Source: Thermoleophilia bacterium (GTDB lineage: Bacteria; Actinomycetota; Thermoleophilia; Gaiellales; SKUG01). Taken from it: a stretch of 36,298 bases of DNA. Position numbers and translations under genes: made by a program. The DNA lies in assembly GCA_025964435.1 (NCBI GenBank), contig JAOPYV010000044.1, positions 1 to 36,298 of the forward strand, read 5' to 3'. The notes beneath the pieces are model-generated. The model ran no database searches and was not told the DNA's origin. It saw only the letters and a list, made by a program, of their open reading frames with translations. This document shows positions 12,552 to 29,896 of this stretch, piece after piece (the first letter of the stretch is position 1; every line of letters starts with the position of its first letter).

Positions 12552-14105
12552 ATGGCACTCGCACCTTCAGCTCGAGCACGACGACGGATCTCGCGATCCT
12601 GCCTCGTCCTGCTCGGTGCAGCCGTCGTGGCGCTCGGTGCCGTCGGCAGCGCGGTTGCCGCAGGCGCCACGGCCAGTGCCGTGGCGACGTCCTCGGCGAA
12701 CCCACCCACCTTCATCCCGAACTGGGATGGCCACACCGATTCGACGATGCTCGACTACACGCTGCTCGTGCGCAGCCGCGTCGTCGTGCAGGTCGTCGAC
12801 GGCCGAGGCTCGATCGTCGACACGCTCGAACGCTCGACGCGTCCCGCTGGCACGCATGTGGCGGTGTGGGACGGGCGCACGACGACCGGTCGCGTGCTGC
12901 CGGCCGGCACGTATCGCATCCGCATCACGGCGACGCCGCTCGAGCGCGGCAGCGACGAGCCGGGCGAGGCCAACGCCGGCGTCGGCATCGTCAACGGCAC
13001 GCGCGACGTCGCCGTCGTCCTGGAGCAGTCGCCCGTCTCGGTGACGGCAGTTCGGCTGACGCGCGGTTCGCTCGGTCGAGCCAAGCAGCTCTCGATGACC
13101 CGTGCACGCTTCCAGCTGTCGGCGCCTGCAGCGGTGTCCGCGGTCGTCATCAATGCCAGCGGTGGCATCGTGCGCACACTGCACACCGGGCGCATGAACG
13201 CCGGTGAACGCTGGGTCGACTGGCGCGGCGTCGGTGGCAGTGGTCGCCCCGTCGCCGACGGCGACTACACACTGCTCGTGGCCGCGGCTGGTGGCGGACG
13301 CCCGTCCGAGACGCTCCGGCAGCCGCTGCGCGTCGACCGCACCGTTCCGGTGCTACGCACGAAGCGTGCCGTCCGAACCGTCAGCAGCGCTCGCGCCGTG
13401 ACGATCCCGCTCGTCGTCTCGGTGAGTGAGCCGTCGAAGGTGTCGATCAGGATCGGCCGCCGAACCGTCACCGCGGACAAGGCAGCCGGCACGCATCGGC
13501 TGTCCGTCCCGGGCAGCTCACTCGGCCTGCGGCCCGCACGCTCGATCCGTCGTCTTCCTGCCGTCGTGTCAGCCGTCGATTCGACCGGCAACGCCCGGAC
13601 GCTCGCCGTGACGCTCGTCGTGCCGGCCGCATCGAAGACCGTGAAGGTCCCGGCGCGCACGCCCGTGAAGACTCCCGTCGCGCCGCCCGTATCGCCGCCG
13701 ACGAACCAGGGCCCGCAGCCCGTCTCCGGCGCGTTCGGCTGGCCTGCCGTCGGTGTCGTGTCGTCGCCCTTCGGCCCGCGCGGCGGACGCATGCACCAGG
13801 GCATCGACATCGCCGCGCCGGGTGGAACGCCGATCCACCCCGCCACGGCTGGCGTCGTGAACTTCGTCGGCGATCGAGCCGACTGCTACGGCAACGTCGT
13901 CGTGCTCGACCATCCCAACGGTGTGCAGACCTGGTACGCGCACCAGTCGAAGCTCGGCCGCTTCGTCGTCGGAGATCGTGTCGATCGCCTGGATGTCATC
14001 GGCTACGTCGGGACGACCGGGTGCAGCACGGGTGACCACGTCCACTTCGAGGTGCGGATCGGCGGCAAGGCGCGGAATCCGATGGCGTACCTCGCCAAGC
14101 GGTAG
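12552..14105 (+). CDS. Exported M23 (LytM) peptidoglycan endopeptidase with FlgD/Ig-like repeats
   Basis: This 517-residue protein has an N-terminal signal peptide (about 12-40). The repeats are FlgD-Ig-like: VVDGRGSIVDTL to VWDGRTTTGRVLPAGTYRI at about 75-125, and a second at about 170-262 with WRGVGGSGRPVADGDYTL. A third beta domain and a Pro/Thr/Val linker (360-388) come next. The M23 domain follows, with H415 and D419 in HQGIDIAAP and HVHFEV (496-501), the complete LytM zinc site. M23 enzymes cut peptide cross-bridges in peptidoglycan. The repeats probably mediate surface or wall attachment. The ATG at 12552 is chosen for the signal peptide; no strong Shine-Dalgarno is visible. Confidence 0.9.
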   Translation: MALAPSARARRRISRSCLVLLGAAVVALGAVGSAVAAGATASAVATSSANPPTFIPNWDGHTDSTMLDYTLLVRSRVVVQVVDGRGSIVDTLERSTRPAGTHVAVWDGRTTTGRVLPAGTYRIRITATPLERGSDEPGEANAGVGIVNGTRDVAVVLEQSPVSVTAVRLTRGSLGRAKQLSMTRARFQLSAPAAVSAVVINASGGIVRTLHTGRMNAGERWVDWRGVGGSGRPVADGDYTLLVAAAGGGRPSETLRQPLRVDRTVPVLRTKRAVRTVSSARAVTIPLVVSVSEPSKVSIRIGRRTVTADKAAGTHRLSVPGSSLGLRPARSIRRLPAVVSAVDSTGNARTLAVTLVVPAASKTVKVPARTPVKTPVAPPVSPPTNQGPQPVSGAFGWPAVGVVSSPFGPRGGRMHQGIDIAAPGGTPIHPATAGVVNFVGDRADCYGNVVVLDHPNGVQTWYAHQSKLGRFVVGDRVDRLDVIGYVGTTGCSTGDHVHFEVRIGGKARNPMAYLAKR

Positions 14106-14202
14106 TGCGTCGGAGCGCCGGCCACCAGATCGCACGGCATGTTCGGTGCGGTCGCGGGTTCCCTCGAGACGGGGACGAATGAGCGATGACGGAGGAATAC
14201 CT

Positions 14203-15897
14203 GTGGCCCAGGGAAATCCGCTGGGCGTGACGCTTGCTGCGCGCGCACTGGCAGAACATTCACGCAACAACCTGACGCTGGCACCGAGCGGACAGGAGGA
14301 AGACACGACGGTGGACACGGATGCGGTCGAGGCAGACGCCGCCGACCTGTACGCCTACATCGAGACGCGGGGTTTCCACTTCCCCCGCGAGCTCGTGACG
14401 CGCTACCTGCTGGCGCTGCTGACCAAGCCGTTCGCGCTCTTCACGGGCATCAGCGGCACGGGCAAGACCAAGCTCGCGCTGCTGACCGCGGAGTTCTACG
14501 CCGCGCGCCCGGGAACCCGTGCTCGCCGCTGGGAGCGGCCCGTCGACGGCGACCACGAGTTCTACCTGCCGATCGACGCGGTCACGCTTCGCAGCGGAAC
14601 GATCACGCCCAGCAGCGACCAGCTCGACTACTTCAACGTGCCGCCGGGTGCGACGGAGACCTTCACCGTCTCCATCACCAACATCCTGGGTGCGCACGGC
14701 GACATCACGTTCCGCGCCACCAACCTCGTCGCGGACGGGCGCAAGCACCTGACGCTGCAGGTGCCCTCGACGGTGCGGCGCGCCTTCGAGGAGACGGGCG
14801 TGACCGAGCGTGACTACCTCCGGTTCGAGATCGTCGAGGAGTTCAAGCGCTATCGCGTCTCGCTCTTCCGGCCCGGCTCGGAAGAGGTGGACGTCCCCGC
14901 GGAGGATCGCTACGAGTTCATCAGCGTGCGACCGAACTGGTCCGACCACACGGCGCTGCTGGGCACCTTCAACTCCCACTACGAGCGCTACGAGCGCACG
15001 CCGGTGGTGGAGCTGCTGCTGCGCGCCGCCCGTGAGGAACGCGATGCACGTGCCGCCGGGGTCAAGCCGGCGCCGTACTTCCTGGTCTTCGACGAGATGA
15101 ACCTGGCGCGGATCGAGCACTACTTCTCGGACTTCCTGTCGGCGCTCGAATCGCGTCGGCGCGACCACGACGGGACGATCCGCCAGGAGCCGCTGCACCT
15201 GCATCGCGTCGACGCGGCACGGCTGCTGTGGGTCGACCACGTCGGGATCGAGTATGAGATCCCCGAGCGGTTGGAGATCCCGACCAACGTCCTGTTCACG
15301 GGAACGCTCAACCTCGATGAGTCGACCTACGGCCTGAGCGCCAAGGTCGTCGATCGCGCCAACACGATCGCCTTCAGCGCGGTCGACTTCGCGGGCTTCC
15401 TGCGCGGCGCTGAGGGCTCGGACGACGGCAGCCCGCTGGAGCTCTCCGCCGAGGCGACCGCCTCGATCGAGCTGGGCACCTTCGCGCTCGCCGAGGCGAG
15501 TGACAGCCGCGCCGTGGCGAAGGAGCTGGAGCCATTCGTCCAGCTCAACGAGCTGCTCGTGCGGCATGACCAGCACTACGGCTACCGCGTGCTCAACGAT
15601 GTCGCCTTCTATGTCCGCTCGGCGCAGCAGCTCGTGGGCGATTCGCCCGAGGTGCTGCACGCCGCGGTGGATGCCTGCGTGCTGCAGAAGGTGGTGCCGA
15701 AGTTCTACGGCTGGAAGCAGGACCGCGGCGGCATGCTGCGCGACCTGCTCTCGTTCTGCGTCGAGGGCTCGGCGATGCCGACGATGCGGGAGATCCAGGT
15801 CGATGCCAATGATCGCGCGGTCTGCATCGACGGGTCGACGCCGTACCTACCGCGTGCCGCAGGACGCCTGGCTCGCATGCTGGGGGCGATGGGGTAG
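14203..15897 (+). CDS. McrB-like AAA+ ATPase without McrC partner
   Basis: From the GTG at 14203 (GGAGGA 6 nt upstream) this is a 564-residue protein. The AAA+ core has Walker A GISGTGKT (82-89), RYEFISVRPNWSDHTALLG (236-254), Walker B LVFDEMNLARIEHYFSDFL (294-312), and sensor region GTLNLDESTYGLSAKVVDRAN (367-387). This is the arrangement of McrB-type restriction NTPases. The McrB GTP signature MNTAD reads TLNLDE here, so ATP is the more likely nucleotide. About 120 residues between Walker A and the RYEF motif (about 112-235) form a beta-rich insert. No McrC nuclease follows. The neighbours are two peptidoglycan hydrolases, the downstream one starting 9 nt after the stop. Alternative starts are ATG 14179, or GTG 14311 behind AGGAGGA. 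Confidence 0.8.
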   Translation: MAQGNPLGVTLAARALAEHSRNNLTLAPSGQEEDTTVDTDAVEADAADLYAYIETRGFHFPRELVTRYLLALLTKPFALFTGISGTGKTKLALLTAEFYAARPGTRARRWERPVDGDHEFYLPIDAVTLRSGTITPSSDQLDYFNVPPGATETFTVSITNILGAHGDITFRATNLVADGRKHLTLQVPSTVRRAFEETGVTERDYLRFEIVEEFKRYRVSLFRPGSEEVDVPAEDRYEFISVRPNWSDHTALLGTFNSHYERYERTPVVELLLRAAREERDARAAGVKPAPYFLVFDEMNLARIEHYFSDFLSALESRRRDHDGTIRQEPLHLHRVDAARLLWVDHVGIEYEIPERLEIPTNVLFTGTLNLDESTYGLSAKVVDRANTIAFSAVDFAGFLRGAEGSDDGSPLELSAEATASIELGTFALAEASDSRAVAKELEPFVQLNELLVRHDQHYGYRVLNDVAFYVRSAQQLVGDSPEVLHAAVDACVLQKVVPKFYGWKQDRGGMLRDLLSFCVEGSAMPTMREIQVDANDRAVCIDGSTPYLPRAAGRLARMLGAMG

Positions 15898-15906
15898 GAC
15901 CCGTCC

Positions 15907-16854
15907 ATGCTCCGGTCCATGACCCGCGTGCGTGTCCTCGTCGCGACCTCCGTCGCGTGTGTCGGCCTGCTCCTCGCCGTGCCCGGTGCGGGCATGGGCG
16001 CCGCGGTGCCGGGGCCGGTGCTCGAGCGGCTCGAGGCGGATGTCACGCGGGCGACGCGCGCGGCAGCTGCCGGCCGGCCGGCGCTCGTCAAGGTCGCACG
16101 CGCACAGCGTCTGGCGACGGCAGATGCGGAGCGGGTCGCGGCGCGGCTCGCCGTCATCGAGGGCATCGTCGAGACCTTTCCCACGTCGGCGGGCGCACCG
16201 ACGGCCGCGGCATTCTCCGAACACGCAGCCACCGTCCGCGCTGCCGCCCTGACGGCGACGGGAGAGCTCGACGAGGTGACCGAGGGAGCAGCCGAGCTCC
16301 AGGGTGACGTCCTCGACGCCCAACGTCGGCTCGCCGCCATCCGCAGGGCGGTCGGCAGCGCCGGTTCCCCGGCGTCGCCGATCGGCTCGTGGCGCTTCGG
16401 CTCCGGCGGCCCGACGGTGAGCGCCGAGTCGATCGACCGGTTCCTCGCCTCGAAGGGCTCGCCGATGGCGGGCCACGGGCGTGGCTTCCTCAAGGCCGGG
16501 CTCGAGCACGACCTGGATCCGCGCCTGATCGTGGCCATCGCCGGCGCCGAGTCCTACTTCGGCGCCGAGACGTGCGCCCCGTTCAACGGGTGGGGCTGGG
16601 GCTGCCCGACCAGCCCGTTCCGCTTCACGTCGTGGGACGAAGGGGCGATGACCGTCGCCGCAGGGCTCCGGTCGGGCTACCTCGATGACGGGCTGACGAC
16701 GATCGGGAAGATCCACCTGCGCTACGCACCACCGGCGGCGACGAACGACCCGACCGGCCTGAACTATGGGTGGGCCGACAACGTCGCCAGGTTCCTGGTG
16801 GAGCAGGGCGGCGACCCCGAGGCCGTGAGTGGCGTGCTTCCGCCGTCGAGGTAG
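15907..16854 (+). CDS. Exported glucosaminidase/lysozyme-like protein
   Basis: This 315-residue protein has a signal peptide (about 8-32) and a long Ala-rich helical, possibly coiled-coil region (35-150). A C-terminal domain (about 170-300) matches the GH73-like endo-beta-N-acetylglucosaminidase pattern. It contains IDRFLASKGSPMAGHGRGFLKAG, then LDPRLIVAIAGAESYFGAETC with a candidate catalytic Glu, and FNGWGWG. Such enzymes cut the glycan strand of peptidoglycan. It begins 9 nt after the McrB-like ATPase, so the two are probably co-expressed even though one acts in the cytoplasm and the other outside. The stop codon TAG of the ATPase also forms a weak TAGGAC -10-like box 6 nt before this ATG. 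Confidence 0.75.
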   Translation: MLRSMTRVRVLVATSVACVGLLLAVPGAGMGAAVPGPVLERLEADVTRATRAAAAGRPALVKVARAQRLATADAERVAARLAVIEGIVETFPTSAGAPTAAAFSEHAATVRAAALTATGELDEVTEGAAELQGDVLDAQRRLAAIRRAVGSAGSPASPIGSWRFGSGGPTVSAESIDRFLASKGSPMAGHGRGFLKAGLEHDLDPRLIVAIAGAESYFGAETCAPFNGWGWGCPTSPFRFTSWDEGAMTVAAGLRSGYLDDGLTTIGKIHLRYAPPAATNDPTGLNYGWADNVARFLVEQGGDPEAVSGVLPPSR

Positions 16855-16865
16855 ACGGATAGGGC

Positions 16866-16894
16866 TTGCAGGGTCGCGGATCTCGTCGTACCTT
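16866..16894 (+). promoter_or_regulatory. Sigma70-like promoter of the 16959 gene
   Basis: TTGCAG (16866-16871) and TACCTT (16889-16894) are separated by 17 nt. The sequence TACCTTGGAGGCA is identical to that at 5071-5083. Here no start codon follows at 6 nt, so a 5' leader of about 58 nt is expected before the ATG at 16959. Confidence 0.6.
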
Positions 16895-16958
16895 GGAGGC
16901 AGCGACACGTCCCCCGACGTGGCGCACTACCCCCGACCCGACTGGAGCCACCACCTCG

Positions 16959-17453
16959 ATGACCGATCACGCATCGACTGGCGTCGCGACCATCAGCACG
17001 ATGGCGTGGACGAACGTCGCATCCGCGGATGCGAAGCGGTCCTTGACGTTGATGGGCCGCGTTACCGGCTGGCGCTCCTCGGAACCAAGCTTCCAGGAAT
17101 CGGTCGACGTCGCAGCGGGATGGATCGATCGCGCGCGCCGAGCCGGCAAGCTGCCGGCCGAGCTCCTCGACCTTGCCGGCTCCACGCTGCAGGACGCACG
17201 GAGCCATGTCGGCGAGCTGGAACGTCTCGCCACGCAGGTCGCCCGCGACGCGAACGAGACCGGCACCCTCGACCATTCGCGACTGGCGCAGCTCGAGCAC
17301 ATGGCAGACACCTTGGCGGCCTGGTCCACGGGACTTCGCTCGGTGCTCGACACCGAGCGCGGCGATGACTCCGGTGCGATCGTGCGGCTGCGTGCCGCGG
17401 TTGCGACTCGCACCAGCGGTGGCGGCCTCGAGCTGCTCGTCGCGAAGCTCTGA
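16959..17453 (+). CDS. Small helical protein of unknown function
   Basis: This 164-residue soluble protein begins MTDHASTGVATISTMAWTNV. It is mostly predicted helix: IDRARRAGKLPAELLDLAGSTLQDARSHVGELERLATQVARDAN, then LAQLEHMADTLAAWSTGLRSVL. There is no signal peptide, membrane segment or cysteine, and I do not recognise a family. The ATG at 16959 is preferred over a longer frame from 16866, because the upstream part overlaps the promoter and GGAG lies 11 nt before it. It shares its promoter core with the tail-anchored protein at 5083, suggesting common control. It converges with murJ; the two stop codons lie within a small hairpin. Confidence 0.75.
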   Translation: MTDHASTGVATISTMAWTNVASADAKRSLTLMGRVTGWRSSEPSFQESVDVAAGWIDRARRAGKLPAELLDLAGSTLQDARSHVGELERLATQVARDANETGTLDHSRLAQLEHMADTLAAWSTGLRSVLDTERGDDSGAIVRLRAAVATRTSGGGLELLVAKL

Positions 17454-17466
17454 CGCCAGTCGTCAG
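17450..17466. terminator. Short hairpin between convergent genes
   Basis: CTGACG and CGTCAG form a 6-bp stem around CCAGT and contain the stop codons of both the 16959 gene and murJ. It is short and lacks T-tracts, so a terminator role is tentative. Confidence 0.3.
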
Positions 17467-19091
17467 CGTCCGCGGCGCAGGATCGCGCGCAGCTGGGGCG
17501 CATTCACCATGCGGAACTTGAGCGCGAGGGCGCTGTAGATGCCCCACGTGACGATCACCGCGAGGCCCATGCCGAGCAGCTGGGCGAGGAAGCCGTCGCC
17601 GAGCAGCTGCTCGATGCCGCTCCAGGTCAGGTAACCGAGGCCCACCGAGAGCGAGCCGACGAGCAGCGCCAGACCGGTGATCGACGCGACCGGGCGCATC
17701 GACATGCCGCCGATCCGGCGTCGCAGGATGTACCACATGGCGAAGAACGTGACGGTGTTGGCGATGGCCATCGAGACGGTGATGCCGAAGACGCCGTACT
17801 CCGTGTGGAGCAGGCCGGCGACGATCACGTGCAGCAGGAAGTTGGTGAAGAAGCCGATCGCGGCTGGCGTCCACGGCGACTTCAGGCTGAAGAAGGCGCG
17901 CATCAGCAGCTGGATCGCGCCGTTGCCGATGAGGCCCCACGAGAAGCCGCGCAGCGCGGAGGCGATCAGCTCGGTGTCGCCACCGTCGGTCGCGCCGTAC
18001 TGGAAGAGCAGGCGCACGATCGGCTCGGCCAGGACGATCATGAAGAGCGATGCCGGCATGAGCAGCACGACGATCTGGCGCACGCTGGCCACGGTCGCGT
18101 CGCGGAAGCCGTCATGGTCGCCGCGCGCCGAGTAGCGAGCGAAGAGCGGGAAGAAGACCGTCGCGACGGCGAGCGAGAAGATGCCCTGTGGCAGCTGGAA
18201 GAGGCTGAAGGCGCGGTAGATGACGGCGGGGCCGGCACCGGCATCGCCATCGAGCATCGAGCCGGGGATCCGGCTCGACCAGTAGGTGTTGACGATGTTG
18301 TTGATGCTGATCACCGCGAGGCTGAGCATCACCGGCAGCATCGCGACGAGGACCGCCTTCACGGCGGGATCGCGGAACGACGTGCCGAGCTTGAGGCGAT
18401 GTCCGTGTCCGCGCAGCCACGGCACGGGCAGCAGCGCCTGGACGACCGTGGCGATGACGATCGAGATCGCGTAGACGAAGATCTCCTCGTCCTTCGGCAC
18501 GAGGAAGACCACGACGGCGGTGAAGGCGACGGAGACGACGTTGAAGGCGAGCTGCGCGATGGCCGGCGGCCCGAACTTCCCGTACGAGTTGAGGATGCCG
18601 ATGATGACGCCGCCGATGCTCATGAGCATGACGATGGGCACCAGGATGCGGAACAGCTCGACGGCGAGCGTCATCTCGTCGAAGTGGTCATAGACGACGA
18701 GGTCGACGAAGAACTCGCCGAAGTACATCGCGATGAGGGTCGCCGGCACGAGCATCAGGAGCAGGACGCTCACGATGGTGCTCGCCACGCGCCACGCGCG
18801 CTCCTCCTCATCCTCCTCGCGCAGGCCCGTGAAGACGGGAACGAGCGAGCCGACGAGCGCCTGGTCGGCGACGAAGGTGCGGATGACGTTGGGGATCTGG
18901 AATGCGACGGTGAATGCCGAGAAGGCGGCGCCCGCGCCGAACAGCGCGGAGGACATCGTCTCGCGTGCTAGCCCGACCAGCTTCGTCAGCAGCGTGGCGA
19001 CCATGACCACGACCGTGGACGTGCGGGCACCCCGGATGGGAGCCGTGCCGGGAGTCGATGGTGCATCTGGAGCGGGGGAGGAGGTGCTCAC
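17463..19091 (-). CDS. murJ: Lipid II flippase MurJ
   Basis: This 542-residue polytopic membrane protein of the MOP superfamily moves lipid II across the inner membrane. It has about 14 hydrophobic segments. Family landmarks include TLLTKLVGLARETMSSALFGAG, IPNVIRTFVADQALVGSLVPVF, QLPQGIFSLAVATVFFPLFARYSA and LLFQYGATD. The frame stays open upstream through the tRNA gene, so the GTG at 19091 (VSTSSPAPD) is taken as the start. TAGGAT (19100-19105, minus) lies 8 nt before it and also reads as an AGGA Shine-Dalgarno. The first 25 residues are a disordered cytoplasmic tail. The tRNA-Met gene lies 42 nt upstream on the same strand. Confidence 0.95.
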   Translation of the reverse strand: MSTSSPAPDAPSTPGTAPIRGARTSTVVVMVATLLTKLVGLARETMSSALFGAGAAFSAFTVAFQIPNVIRTFVADQALVGSLVPVFTGLREEDEEERAWRVASTIVSVLLLMLVPATLIAMYFGEFFVDLVVYDHFDEMTLAVELFRILVPIVMLMSIGGVIIGILNSYGKFGPPAIAQLAFNVVSVAFTAVVVFLVPKDEEIFVYAISIVIATVVQALLPVPWLRGHGHRLKLGTSFRDPAVKAVLVAMLPVMLSLAVISINNIVNTYWSSRIPGSMLDGDAGAGPAVIYRAFSLFQLPQGIFSLAVATVFFPLFARYSARGDHDGFRDATVASVRQIVVLLMPASLFMIVLAEPIVRLLFQYGATDGGDTELIASALRGFSWGLIGNGAIQLLMRAFFSLKSPWTPAAIGFFTNFLLHVIVAGLLHTEYGVFGITVSMAIANTVTFFAMWYILRRRIGGMSMRPVASITGLALLVGSLSVGLGYLTWSGIEQLLGDGFLAQLLGMGLAVIVTWGIYSALALKFRMVNAPQLRAILRRGR

Positions 19092-19133
19092 GCCGCAAGA
19101 TCCTACCGGCTCGTGCGGGCCGCGTGCATGGAG

Positions 19134-19207
19134 TGGGGGCGCCGGGACTCGAACCCGGGACCGGCAGGTTATGAGCCCGCTGCTCTGACCAACTGAGCTA
19201 CACCCCC
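19134..19207 (-). tRNA. tRNA-Met (anticodon CAU), elongator type
   Basis: The 74-nt minus-strand sequence folds as a standard cloverleaf. The acceptor stem is GGGGGTG/CGCCCCC. The D-arm contains AGCTCAGTTGGTCAGAGC, the anticodon arm CGGGCTCATAACCCG, and the T-arm CCCGGGTTCGAGTCCCGG. The anticodon is CAU. The paired G1-C72 and the anticodon arm fit elongator Met rather than initiator; an Ile2 (lysidine) tRNA cannot be fully excluded. The discriminator is A, and CCA is not encoded. Confidence 0.95.
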
Positions 19208-26732: not shown

Positions 26733-27359
26733 ATGATTGCCCGCCTCACCGGTCGCTGCGTCCATGCCGACGCGGATTCGCTCATCGTCGATGTCGGCGG
26801 TGTCGGCTACCTCGTGCGTGCCACGACCGGCGTGCTGGTCGCTGCACGGACCCACCCAGAGGAGGTGACGGTCCACATCCACACGAGCGTGCGTGAGGAC
26901 GCGATCCAGCTCTTCGGCTTCGCGAGCGTCGCGGAGCAGTCGGTCTTCGAGCGCCTCACCAGCCTGCAGGGAGTCGGCCCCAAGGTCGCCATCGGCGTGC
27001 TCAGCTCGCTCAGCCCGCAGGACGTGCGGCGCGCCACCGACGTGGAGGACGTGGCGCTGCTGCAGTCCGTCCCCGGTGTCGGCCCCAAGGTCGCGCGGCG
27101 GATCGTGACCGAGCTCAAGGGCAAGCTCGACGACATCGTGCCGCCCATGACCACCTTTGCGGCCACCGTCGAGGATGGCGCCGCGATGCTCGATCACCGC
27201 GCCACCTTCTACGAGGCGCGTGAGGCGCTGGTCGGCCTTGGCATGGGCATTCCCGAAGCCGACGCGGCGCTCGCCGGCACGGCTGAGGACGCGACCGCGG
27301 CCGAGCGCGTCAAGCAGGCACTGGCAGCAACGAAGAAGACCAAGGCGGCGAAGCGATGA
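26733..27359 (+). CDS. ruvA: Holliday junction branch migration protein RuvA
   Basis: This 208-residue junction-binding subunit forms tetramers on Holliday junctions and loads RuvB. It begins [10 protein letters not shown], the usual family start, so the ATG at 26733 is preferred over the in-frame ATG at 26700. Two helix-hairpin-helix segments are visible ([22 protein letters not shown] and [24 protein letters not shown]). The C-terminal RuvB-binding domain (about 160-200: [22 protein letters not shown]) is also present. Its stop overlaps the ruvB start (ATGA), a standard coupling. Confidence 0.96.
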
Positions 27360-29896
27360 GCGACCTCGACTTCTCCCACAAGCCGGGCATCCCGGTGGGC
27401 GATCCGGGCACAGGTACGCCCGGTGGCGCACCGCGCGAGGAGGGCTCGCCGATGCGCAGCCCGATCGCCGACGCCGAATCCCGCCGCGGCGACGACGAGC
27501 TGGACCGCTCGCTGCGCCCGAAGAGCCTCGACGACTTCGTCGGCCAGAAGCGCGTCCGTGAGCAGCTGCAGGTCTTCATCGACGCTGCGCGGCATCGCGA
27601 CGAGGCGCTCGACCACGCGCTGTTCGCCGGCCCGCCCGGGCTCGGCAAGTGCGTCACGCCCGACACGATGGTCTTCACGACGCACGGCATGGAGCCGATC
27701 GGTGGACTCGGCGTCGTCGGTGGCGAGAGCTGGCAGCCGATCACCCGACCGATCGCCGGCCTCTACGGAACACGCACGGCCGACTACTTCTACGACAACG
27801 GTGACGGGCCGACGCTCCGGGTCACCACCCGCGCGGGCTACCGTGTCGAAGGCACGCCGAACCACCCGCTGCTGGTCAAGGGCAACGATGGACGGCTGCA
27901 GTTCCGCCGACTCGGTGAGCTCCGCTTCGGCGATGAGGTTGCAGTGCGTCTCGGCGCGCAGGTCTTCGGCTCCAACACGAAGCTGCACGTCGAAGGCGTC
28001 GGCATTCCGAGCATGCAGGACCCTGCACGCACGACTGACGAGCTCGAGCCGGACCTGGCGCGCCTGCTCGGCCTGCTGCTCGACGGTGGGCGCATCTCGC
28101 CCGGCGGCGACGGCATCGTCTTCGTCACCCGTGACGCAGTCCGCGCGGAGGAGTTCCAGGCCTGCGCCCAGTCGGCGCTGTGCCTGACGGTGGAGTCCTT
28201 CGGGTCCGGCCCGCTCGGTGAGCGCTGGGGCGCACGCAGCCCACGCGTTGCCACCTTCCTGCAGGGGCTCGGACTCACGCGCGAGGGTTTCGCCGACGTG
28301 CCCGAGTGCATCTACCGCGCGCCGCGACTGCTCGTCGCCGAGTTCCTGCGCGGCCTGTTCTGGGGCGTCGAGCATGCACCTGTCTTCAGCCACCAGGAGC
28401 GCACGGTCGTCGCGCACCTGCAGCTGATGCTCGCCAACTTCGGCATCGAGTCGAGCATCCTGCCGAGCGAGCGGGGCTGGGCCCTGCGCGCCAGCTCCGA
28501 GCCCGCGAAGTTCGATTCGATGCACCCGGACGAGTTCGGTGACATCCACGATCCCTACGCCGAGGTCGGTGGACAGCACCATCACGGCGACGAGCCCCGC
28601 GACGCTGCCGCACGATTGCGCGATCGCGAGCGCAACACGCAGCGGGCCCAGGTGTCGACGCCACTGGCCGAGACGCGCGACGGTCGCGAGGGTGGCGTCG
28701 GCTTCGGCCTGACCGCTGCCGGCGTCCTCGTCGCGATGGAGGCGGAGGAGATCGACTCCTACCGCCGCGGCGGCGCACGCGCCGACGACATCGTGCCGGT
28801 CCGGGTCGAGAACACGGGGCGGGTGCAGATCGAATCGGTCACCGTGGCCGAGGTCGAGCCGGTCGAGCGCGGTCGCGCCCTGCTGCGCGAGACCGAGCAC
28901 GACCACCGCGCGCTCGCCGTGCGAAGCGTGCGGTCCAAGCTGCGCCGGGACGAGATGGTGGAGCTTGCCTGGGAGCCGGTCGTCTCGATCGAGCCGGGCA
29001 CGGCACACACCGTCGACGTCAGCGTCCCCGACGGCCACACCTTCATCGGCAACGGCATCATCTGTCACAACACGACGCTCGCCAGCGTCGTCGCCAACGA
29101 GCTCGGCTCCACGATGCACGCCACGAGTGGGCCCGCCCTGGAGAAGAAGGCCGATGTCGCTGCCATCCTCACGGCGCTCGGGCCACACGACGTGCTGTTC
29201 ATCGACGAGATCCATCGCCTCAGCACCGCGATCGAGGAAGTCCTCTACACGGCGATGGAGGACTACCAGATCGACATCGTGCTCGGTCAGGGTCCCGCAG
29301 CGCGCACGCTGCGACTCGACCTGGAACCGTTCACGCTCGTCGGTGCCACGACCCGGGCGGGCCTGCTGACGACGCCGCTGCGCGATCGCTTCGGCATCAC
29401 CCAGCGGCTCGAGTACTACGACGTCGCCGAGCTGACCGATGTCGTGCGTCGCTCCGCGCGCCTGCTCGAGCTGGAGATCGACGACCAGTCCGCCGGCGAG
29501 ATCGCGTCTCGTTCACGTGGCACGCCACGTATCGCCAATCGCCTGCTGCGTCGGGTCCGCGACGTCGCGCAAGTGCGGCACGCCGGCCACATCACGCTCG
29601 ACATCACGCAGGAAGCGCTCGACCTCGTCGACATCGACGCCGTCGGCCTCGACCGCATCGACCGGCAGATCCTCGAGGTGATCCTCTCGAAGTTCGGTGG
29701 CGGTCCCGTCGGCCTGTCGACGCTCGCCGTCGCGATCGGCGAGGAGCAGCACACGATCGAGGATGTCTACGAGCCGTTCCTGCTGCAGCGTGGATTCCTG
29801 ATGCGCACTCCGCGTGGGCGCGTCATCACGCCGCGCGGCCGGGCGCACCTCGGGGCCGCGGGCTTCGATGTCACGACGGCCGGCGAGCTGTTCTGA
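27356..29896 (+). CDS. ruvB: RuvB Holliday junction helicase precursor containing an intein
   Basis: The 846-residue frame is RuvB interrupted by a 474-residue intein. The N-extein (1-98) holds a 50-residue disordered extension, [11 protein letters not shown] and Walker A as far as GPPGLGK. The C-extein resumes with [12 protein letters not shown], then FIDEIHR (Walker B), GATTRAG, the sensor and arginine-finger region, and the winged-helix domain ending [10 protein letters not shown]. Removing the intein restores GPPGLGKTTLA and leaves a 372-residue RuvB, the AAA+ motor that drives branch migration with RuvA. Without splicing, the ATP site is disrupted. Its start overlaps ruvA, and a strong terminator follows at 29911-29939. 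Confidence 0.97.
27650..29071 (+). other. Intein in the RuvB P-loop, with degenerate LAGLIDADG endonuclease
   Basis: The intein is 474 residues, from Cys1 ([18 protein letters not shown], block A) to Asn474. Block B is [17 protein letters not shown] with TPNH at 69-72. Block F lies at about 443-463 and block G is GNGIICHN (467-474), followed by Thr as the +1 extein residue. The splicing residues Cys1, block B Thr/His, and the terminal His-Asn are all present, so splicing is likely. The middle (about 130-290) has two LAGLIDADG-like helices, [10 protein letters not shown] (140-149) and LRGLFWGVE (233-241). The catalytic acidic position appears to be Gly and Val respectively, so the homing endonuclease is probably dead. 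A linker of about 130 residues (285-420) has no recognisable motif. Confidence 0.95.

Follow-up and report, generated by a model that had tools for sequence, protein, structure and literature searches.

The window, the whole stretch of 36,298 nt that was analysed, is one complete contig of the draft genome G000 (3.22 Mb in 213 contigs, 88% complete), which belongs to an uncultivated Thermoleophilia genus and was compared with the drafts of three congeners, G001, G002 (64% complete) and G003 (78% complete). Within it, a gene for an AAA+ GTPase is followed by a gene for an exported glucosaminidase-like protein, in the following setting:

12552..14105, + strand: exported FlgD-Ig/M23 peptidase, a resident neighbour (Pfam M23, 2.8e-28; G001 has the orthologue but no cassette)
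14203..15897, + strand: partnerless McrB-family (NxD branch) AAA+ GTPase, 564 aa (PADLOC PDC-M26A, 2.3e-35; motifs; Shine-Dalgarno sequence and orthologue start)
14446..14472, + strand: Walker A, GISGTGKTK
14554..14913, + strand: predicted B3-like DNA-binding domain, between Walker A and Walker B (AF2 and Foldseek)
15079..15102, + strand: Walker B, FLVFDEMN
15301..15321, + strand: NxD signature, GTLNLDE (NxD branch according to PMC11090510)
15907..16854, + strand: exported coiled-coil and endo-beta-N-acetylglucosaminidase-like protein, 9 nt after the GTPase stop (signal peptide read by eye)
16959..17453, + strand: small protein, directly 3′ of the M23 gene in the uninterrupted G001 locus
17463..19091, − strand: MurJ, the syntenic anchor (TIGR01695, 2.8e-87; synteny; start inferred from the G001 orthologue)

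The M23 gene upstream and the glucosaminidase-like gene 9 nt downstream, both described in an earlier note on this DNA, were confirmed. Gene order is identical in G000 and G003 (NadE-SRPBCC-TerC-M23-GTPase-glucosaminidase-small gene-MurJ), and G003 also keeps the 9 nt gap. G001 carries the same locus on one contig, uninterrupted, with the small gene and murJ immediately after the M23 gene, and with neither GTPase nor glucosaminidase; the locus is absent from the G002 assembly (64% complete). As G001 retains the M23 gene without the other two, the GTPase and glucosaminidase genes make up a cassette of two, with the M23 peptidase as a bystander. The surroundings of the GTPase are non-defence genes (NadE, TerC, MurJ, PdxS-type and transport genes). 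No convincing flanking repeats, the mark of a mobile element, were found around the cassette, and a plasmid search returned only partial matches of under 60%.

A conserved GTACCTTGGAGG-like stretch (16880-16960 in the window, with equivalents in L031 and L032) precedes the small gene in all three congeners that have the locus; it sits at the cassette's downstream edge, and is possibly the small gene's own promoter. A tRNA-Met gene (anticodon CAT; 19133-19207, − strand) lies immediately 5′ of murJ and is overlapped by the longest murJ ORF, so murJ probably starts at the GTG at 19091.

Pfam assigned no family over cut-off to the product of the second cassette gene. A profile (A7) of its paralogues in the genus matched solved glucosaminidases (8yxk at 4.1e-7 and 4q2w at 0.010), and a catalytic-type glutamate, E215, is invariant; homology to solved enzymes together with the conserved glutamate thus marks the product as a putative endo-beta-N-acetylglucosaminidase. 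In the AF2 model, which is of low confidence (pLDDT 59), the N-terminal half consists of two long helices. This half evolves fast, and the glucosaminidase domain is highly conserved between G000 and G003. Each of the four congeners encodes at least one further glucosaminidase-domain paralogue away from the locus, with coiled-coil-like N-terminal or long C-terminal extensions (L010 and L014 in G000; L008, L009 and L011-L013 in the other congeners).

An McrB-family GTPase with a predicted B3-like insert

The GTPase gene likely starts at the GTG at 14203, as this codon has GGAGG upstream and yields an N-terminus, MAQGNPLG, that aligns with MAQINPLG of the G003 orthologue; a less likely alternative is an in-frame ATG further upstream, at 14179. 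Pfam detected no family over cut-off in the protein. A profile of the protein and 19 relatives matched the Escherichia coli McrB structure 6hz4 at 3.8e-12, and also 6ut6 and 7vsr, all within a range of about 1e-11 to 1e-12. The earlier note had read an McrB-like ATPase with Walker A, Walker B and DRAN motifs, and all three were indeed found, with every catalytic motif residue retained; judged by core homology and by its Walker A, Walker B and Nx(xx)D motifs, the protein is a member of the McrB family. The note had further taken TLNLDE to be a departure from the McrB GTP signature. This was a misreading, as a large branch of McrB GTPases is defined by just this NxD form, in which N-x-D usually precedes E or D (PMC11090510); the signature reads NLDE in the window, NLDD in G003 and GTVNVDETT in relatives. 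We are nearly certain that the protein is an NxD-branch McrB-family GTPase, a branch from which no member had been characterised at the time of a 2024 census (PMC11090510). The family is found in five of 399 genomes of the class at E 1e-20.

Between Walker A and Walker B lies an insert of about 120 residues (126-245, counted from the ATG at 14179), and a homologous insert is common to about 20 relatives that have a nuclease partner. Its AF2 model, built from 21 sequences, reached a pLDDT of 76.9, and a Foldseek search placed the N-terminal domain of LlaJI.R1 first (6c5d, 2.6e-5), followed by several plant B3 domains and EcoRII-N. The insert is thus a putative B3 DNA-binding domain. Between G000 and G003 it is 80% identical, and the core 76%. 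Among the listed partnered pairs, the insert is the fastest-changing part of the protein (identity 0.12-0.51, versus 0.65-0.88 for the core), a comparison between orthologues from a single locus and homologues which may be non-orthologous and may differ in specificity; in one close partnered pair, L062/L063, the insert is also conserved (0.92 versus 0.94 for the core). The conservation of the insert in the partnerless pair is suggestive of a fixed DNA target. Upstream of the GTPase gene, the only shared operator-like word was a 9-mer, which is within the shuffle range.

LlaJI.R1 is an McrB-like protein that binds DNA site-specifically through its B3 domain (PMC7680126); it binds its site without the R2 subunit, and restriction by LlaJI requires both subunits (PMC1459862). 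The window protein resembles it in combining an McrB-type GTPase with a B3-like domain, here a predicted fold, but the LlaJI domain is N-terminal, whereas that of the window protein lies inside the AAA+ fold. The LlaJI system also has R2, a nuclease, and methyltransferases as working partners; the window GTPase adjoins neither an R2 nuclease nor cognate methyltransferases, its neighbours being TerC, M23, glucosaminidase and MurJ. With the NxD-branch McrBC systems, which include the CoCoNuTs (PMC11090510), it shares the N-x-D-E signature and a GTPase domain that carries an insertion, but its locus has neither a DUF2357 McrC homologue nor CoCoNuT accessory genes. The 564 aa protein comprises the AAA+ core and the B3-like insert, with no fused coiled-coil, and there are no tandem nuclease genes, so it is not itself a CoCoNuT. 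It matches the PADLOC candidate defence family PDC-M26A well, but lacks that family's usual nuclease partner. E. coli McrBC has the same AAA+ GTPase core, and differs in its NxxD motif, its methylcytosine-binding N-terminal domain and its McrC.

The nuclease partner in relatives and congeners

The comparison set comprised 80 homologous loci from many phyla, three of which are truncated on one side by the end of a contig. In all 77 assessable loci, a DUF2357-PDDEXK (McrC) partner is encoded within 1 kb; it is directly adjacent and on the same strand in 75 (67 downstream and eight upstream), and slightly further off in the other two. A partner is likewise encoded at four further loci from Actinomycetota and at three from viruses; the viral loci are distant and were found with a profile query, a single protein query having given no matches. 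The only partnerless members are the window gene and its 69% identical G003 orthologue, and class- and phylum-wide searches revealed no other.

No DUF2357, PDDEXK_7 or McrBC-family protein is encoded near the window GTPase. The earlier statement that McrC is absent nearby was thus correct, and the view that a conventional restriction role fits poorly is supported. The GTPase is an exception in its family, as every assessable relative has the partner. Without a DUF2357-PD-(D/E)xK protein encoded alongside the GTPase, the locus does not qualify as an McrBC or Type IV restriction system. The same note had proposed a search for McrC elsewhere in the genome. PF10117 had no match over cut-off in G000; as Pfam is blind to the GTPase itself, this family alone would be an unfair test for McrC, and DUF2357, PDDEXK_7 and a 21-sequence partner profile (A3) were added. 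PF09823 and PF04411 had no match over cut-off in any of the four congeners, and the partner profile had none in G000 (88% complete) and none over cut-off in the other congeners; a few matches in G003 and G002 were below cut-off or weak (best 0.0107, in G003).

The partnerless protein also lacks the long N-terminal domain that is usual in relatives, and has lost a conserved C-terminal G-F motif. One relative, L043, is a short-N-terminus, insert-bearing form that is partnered, which indicates that a short N-terminus and an insert are compatible with having a partner. Another locus, L127 (6350-10430), has two tandem McrB-like GTPase genes with almost identical cores before a single DUF2357 partner gene, and another GTPase-partner pair comes after them.

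Conservation and alternative explanations

The dN values between G000 and G003, obtained by a simple counting method on strongly GC-rich codons, were 0.25 for the GTPase, 0.26 for TerC, 0.33 for MurJ, 0.42 for the glucosaminidase and 0.47 for M23. By this measure, the GTPase has been constrained since the two species split, and its amino acid identity, which is like that of TerC (68-70%), is consistent with vertical descent. Both partnerless proteins deviate from the family at 13 of 71 near-invariant columns (family median 2; the sole member that deviates more is L100, at 14 of 71), and a long stem branch leads to the pair.

These features could be read as the decay of a restriction system that has lost its nuclease and now has no function, and the missing partner and N-terminal domain, the lost G-F motif and the long stem branch would all fit. 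However, the gene is intact with all motifs in two species, and its dN, close to that of TerC, is lower than those of the glucosaminidase, MurJ and M23; decay was already disfavoured and we consider it very improbable. It is also quite unlikely, although less so than decay, that the GTPase belongs to a split restriction system of the McrBC/LlaJI type, in which the nuclease half is encoded elsewhere, unassembled or too diverged for the profiles. A distant partner could have escaped the incomplete drafts G000 and G003, the protein keeps the NxD aspartate and every motif, and NxD systems can have unusual McrC homologues (PMC11090510). Against this stand the partner's constant place in the GTPase locus in all assessable relatives, the failure of a sensitive family profile to find a match in G000, an insert that is not diversifying, and a chance of only about 0.03 (0.12 x 0.22) that the partner was missed in both drafts, if losses through incompleteness were random and independent.

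Alternatively, the two cassette genes may form a functional module in which the AAA+ protein, alone or on a DNA signal, controls wall hydrolysis, for example in a lysis-type defence or as a growth-control switch. The earlier note had thought a coupling to wall hydrolysis conceivable and had looked to the conservation of the neighbours. The order does recur in G003 with the same 9 nt spacing, the glucosaminidase domain is highly conserved between the two species, and both genes are missing together in G001. This joint absence, however, is a single presence/absence event; neither a glucosaminidase domain nor an M23 peptidase occurs near the GTPase at any distant homologous locus examined, and the M23 peptidase of the window is a resident. 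Moreover, the genus has other glucosaminidase paralogues, and as the enzyme is apparently exported, any action of a cytosolic GTPase on it would have to be indirect. The coupling is thus weakly suggested by the neighbourhood, and we regard such a module as unlikely.

A possible nuclease-free role

The reading that we favour, and to which we give about an even chance, is exaptation of the GTPase as a nuclease-free DNA-binding NTPase. An NxD-branch McrB GTPase would have lost, or never acquired, its DUF2357-PDDEXK nuclease, and would have been retained at one chromosomal locus in a cassette with an exported glucosaminidase-like gene. The protein would assemble into a nucleotide-dependent ring, its B3 domain would bind a fixed DNA sequence, and GTP (or another NTP) would be cycled without DNA cleavage, the outcome being a switch or roadblock bound to specific sites, either in the host chromosome or in invading DNA. 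We infer that the protein oligomerises, binds DNA and hydrolyses NTP, and that its role is non-cleaving. In the canonical system, the aspartate of the NxxD motif interacts with McrC; the corresponding NxD aspartate is still present in the window protein, so that an McrC-like partner could exist, which counts against a partnerless reading. McrB alone has a low basal GTPase activity that is stimulated by McrC (PMC7680126), and a partnerless form is, therefore, plausible as a slow nucleotide-gated DNA binder.

A more specific proposal, which is tentative and on balance doubtful, is that the domesticated McrB motor is an NTP-driven, sequence-specific DNA-binding regulator of the host, co-expressed with a cell-wall hydrolase; that it might control its own operon or wall genes is a guess. 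If true, this would add a nuclease-free function to a family otherwise known as one half of a restriction enzyme. Partnerless McrB homologues are already known, the 2024 census having added some HHpred-annotated orphans (PMC11090510); what is new here is the cross-species conservation of a partnerless McrB whose DNA-binding insert is frozen and whose neighbours are non-defence genes. As most work on McrB motors concerns their activation of the McrC nuclease, such a protein would reveal what the motor does on its own, and would also offer a test case for the recruitment of restriction parts to host functions.

Elsewhere in the window, the RuvB gene (27356-29896, + strand; 846 aa) is interrupted by an intein, with Pfam RuvB domains and an Intein_splicing match at residues 151-572.
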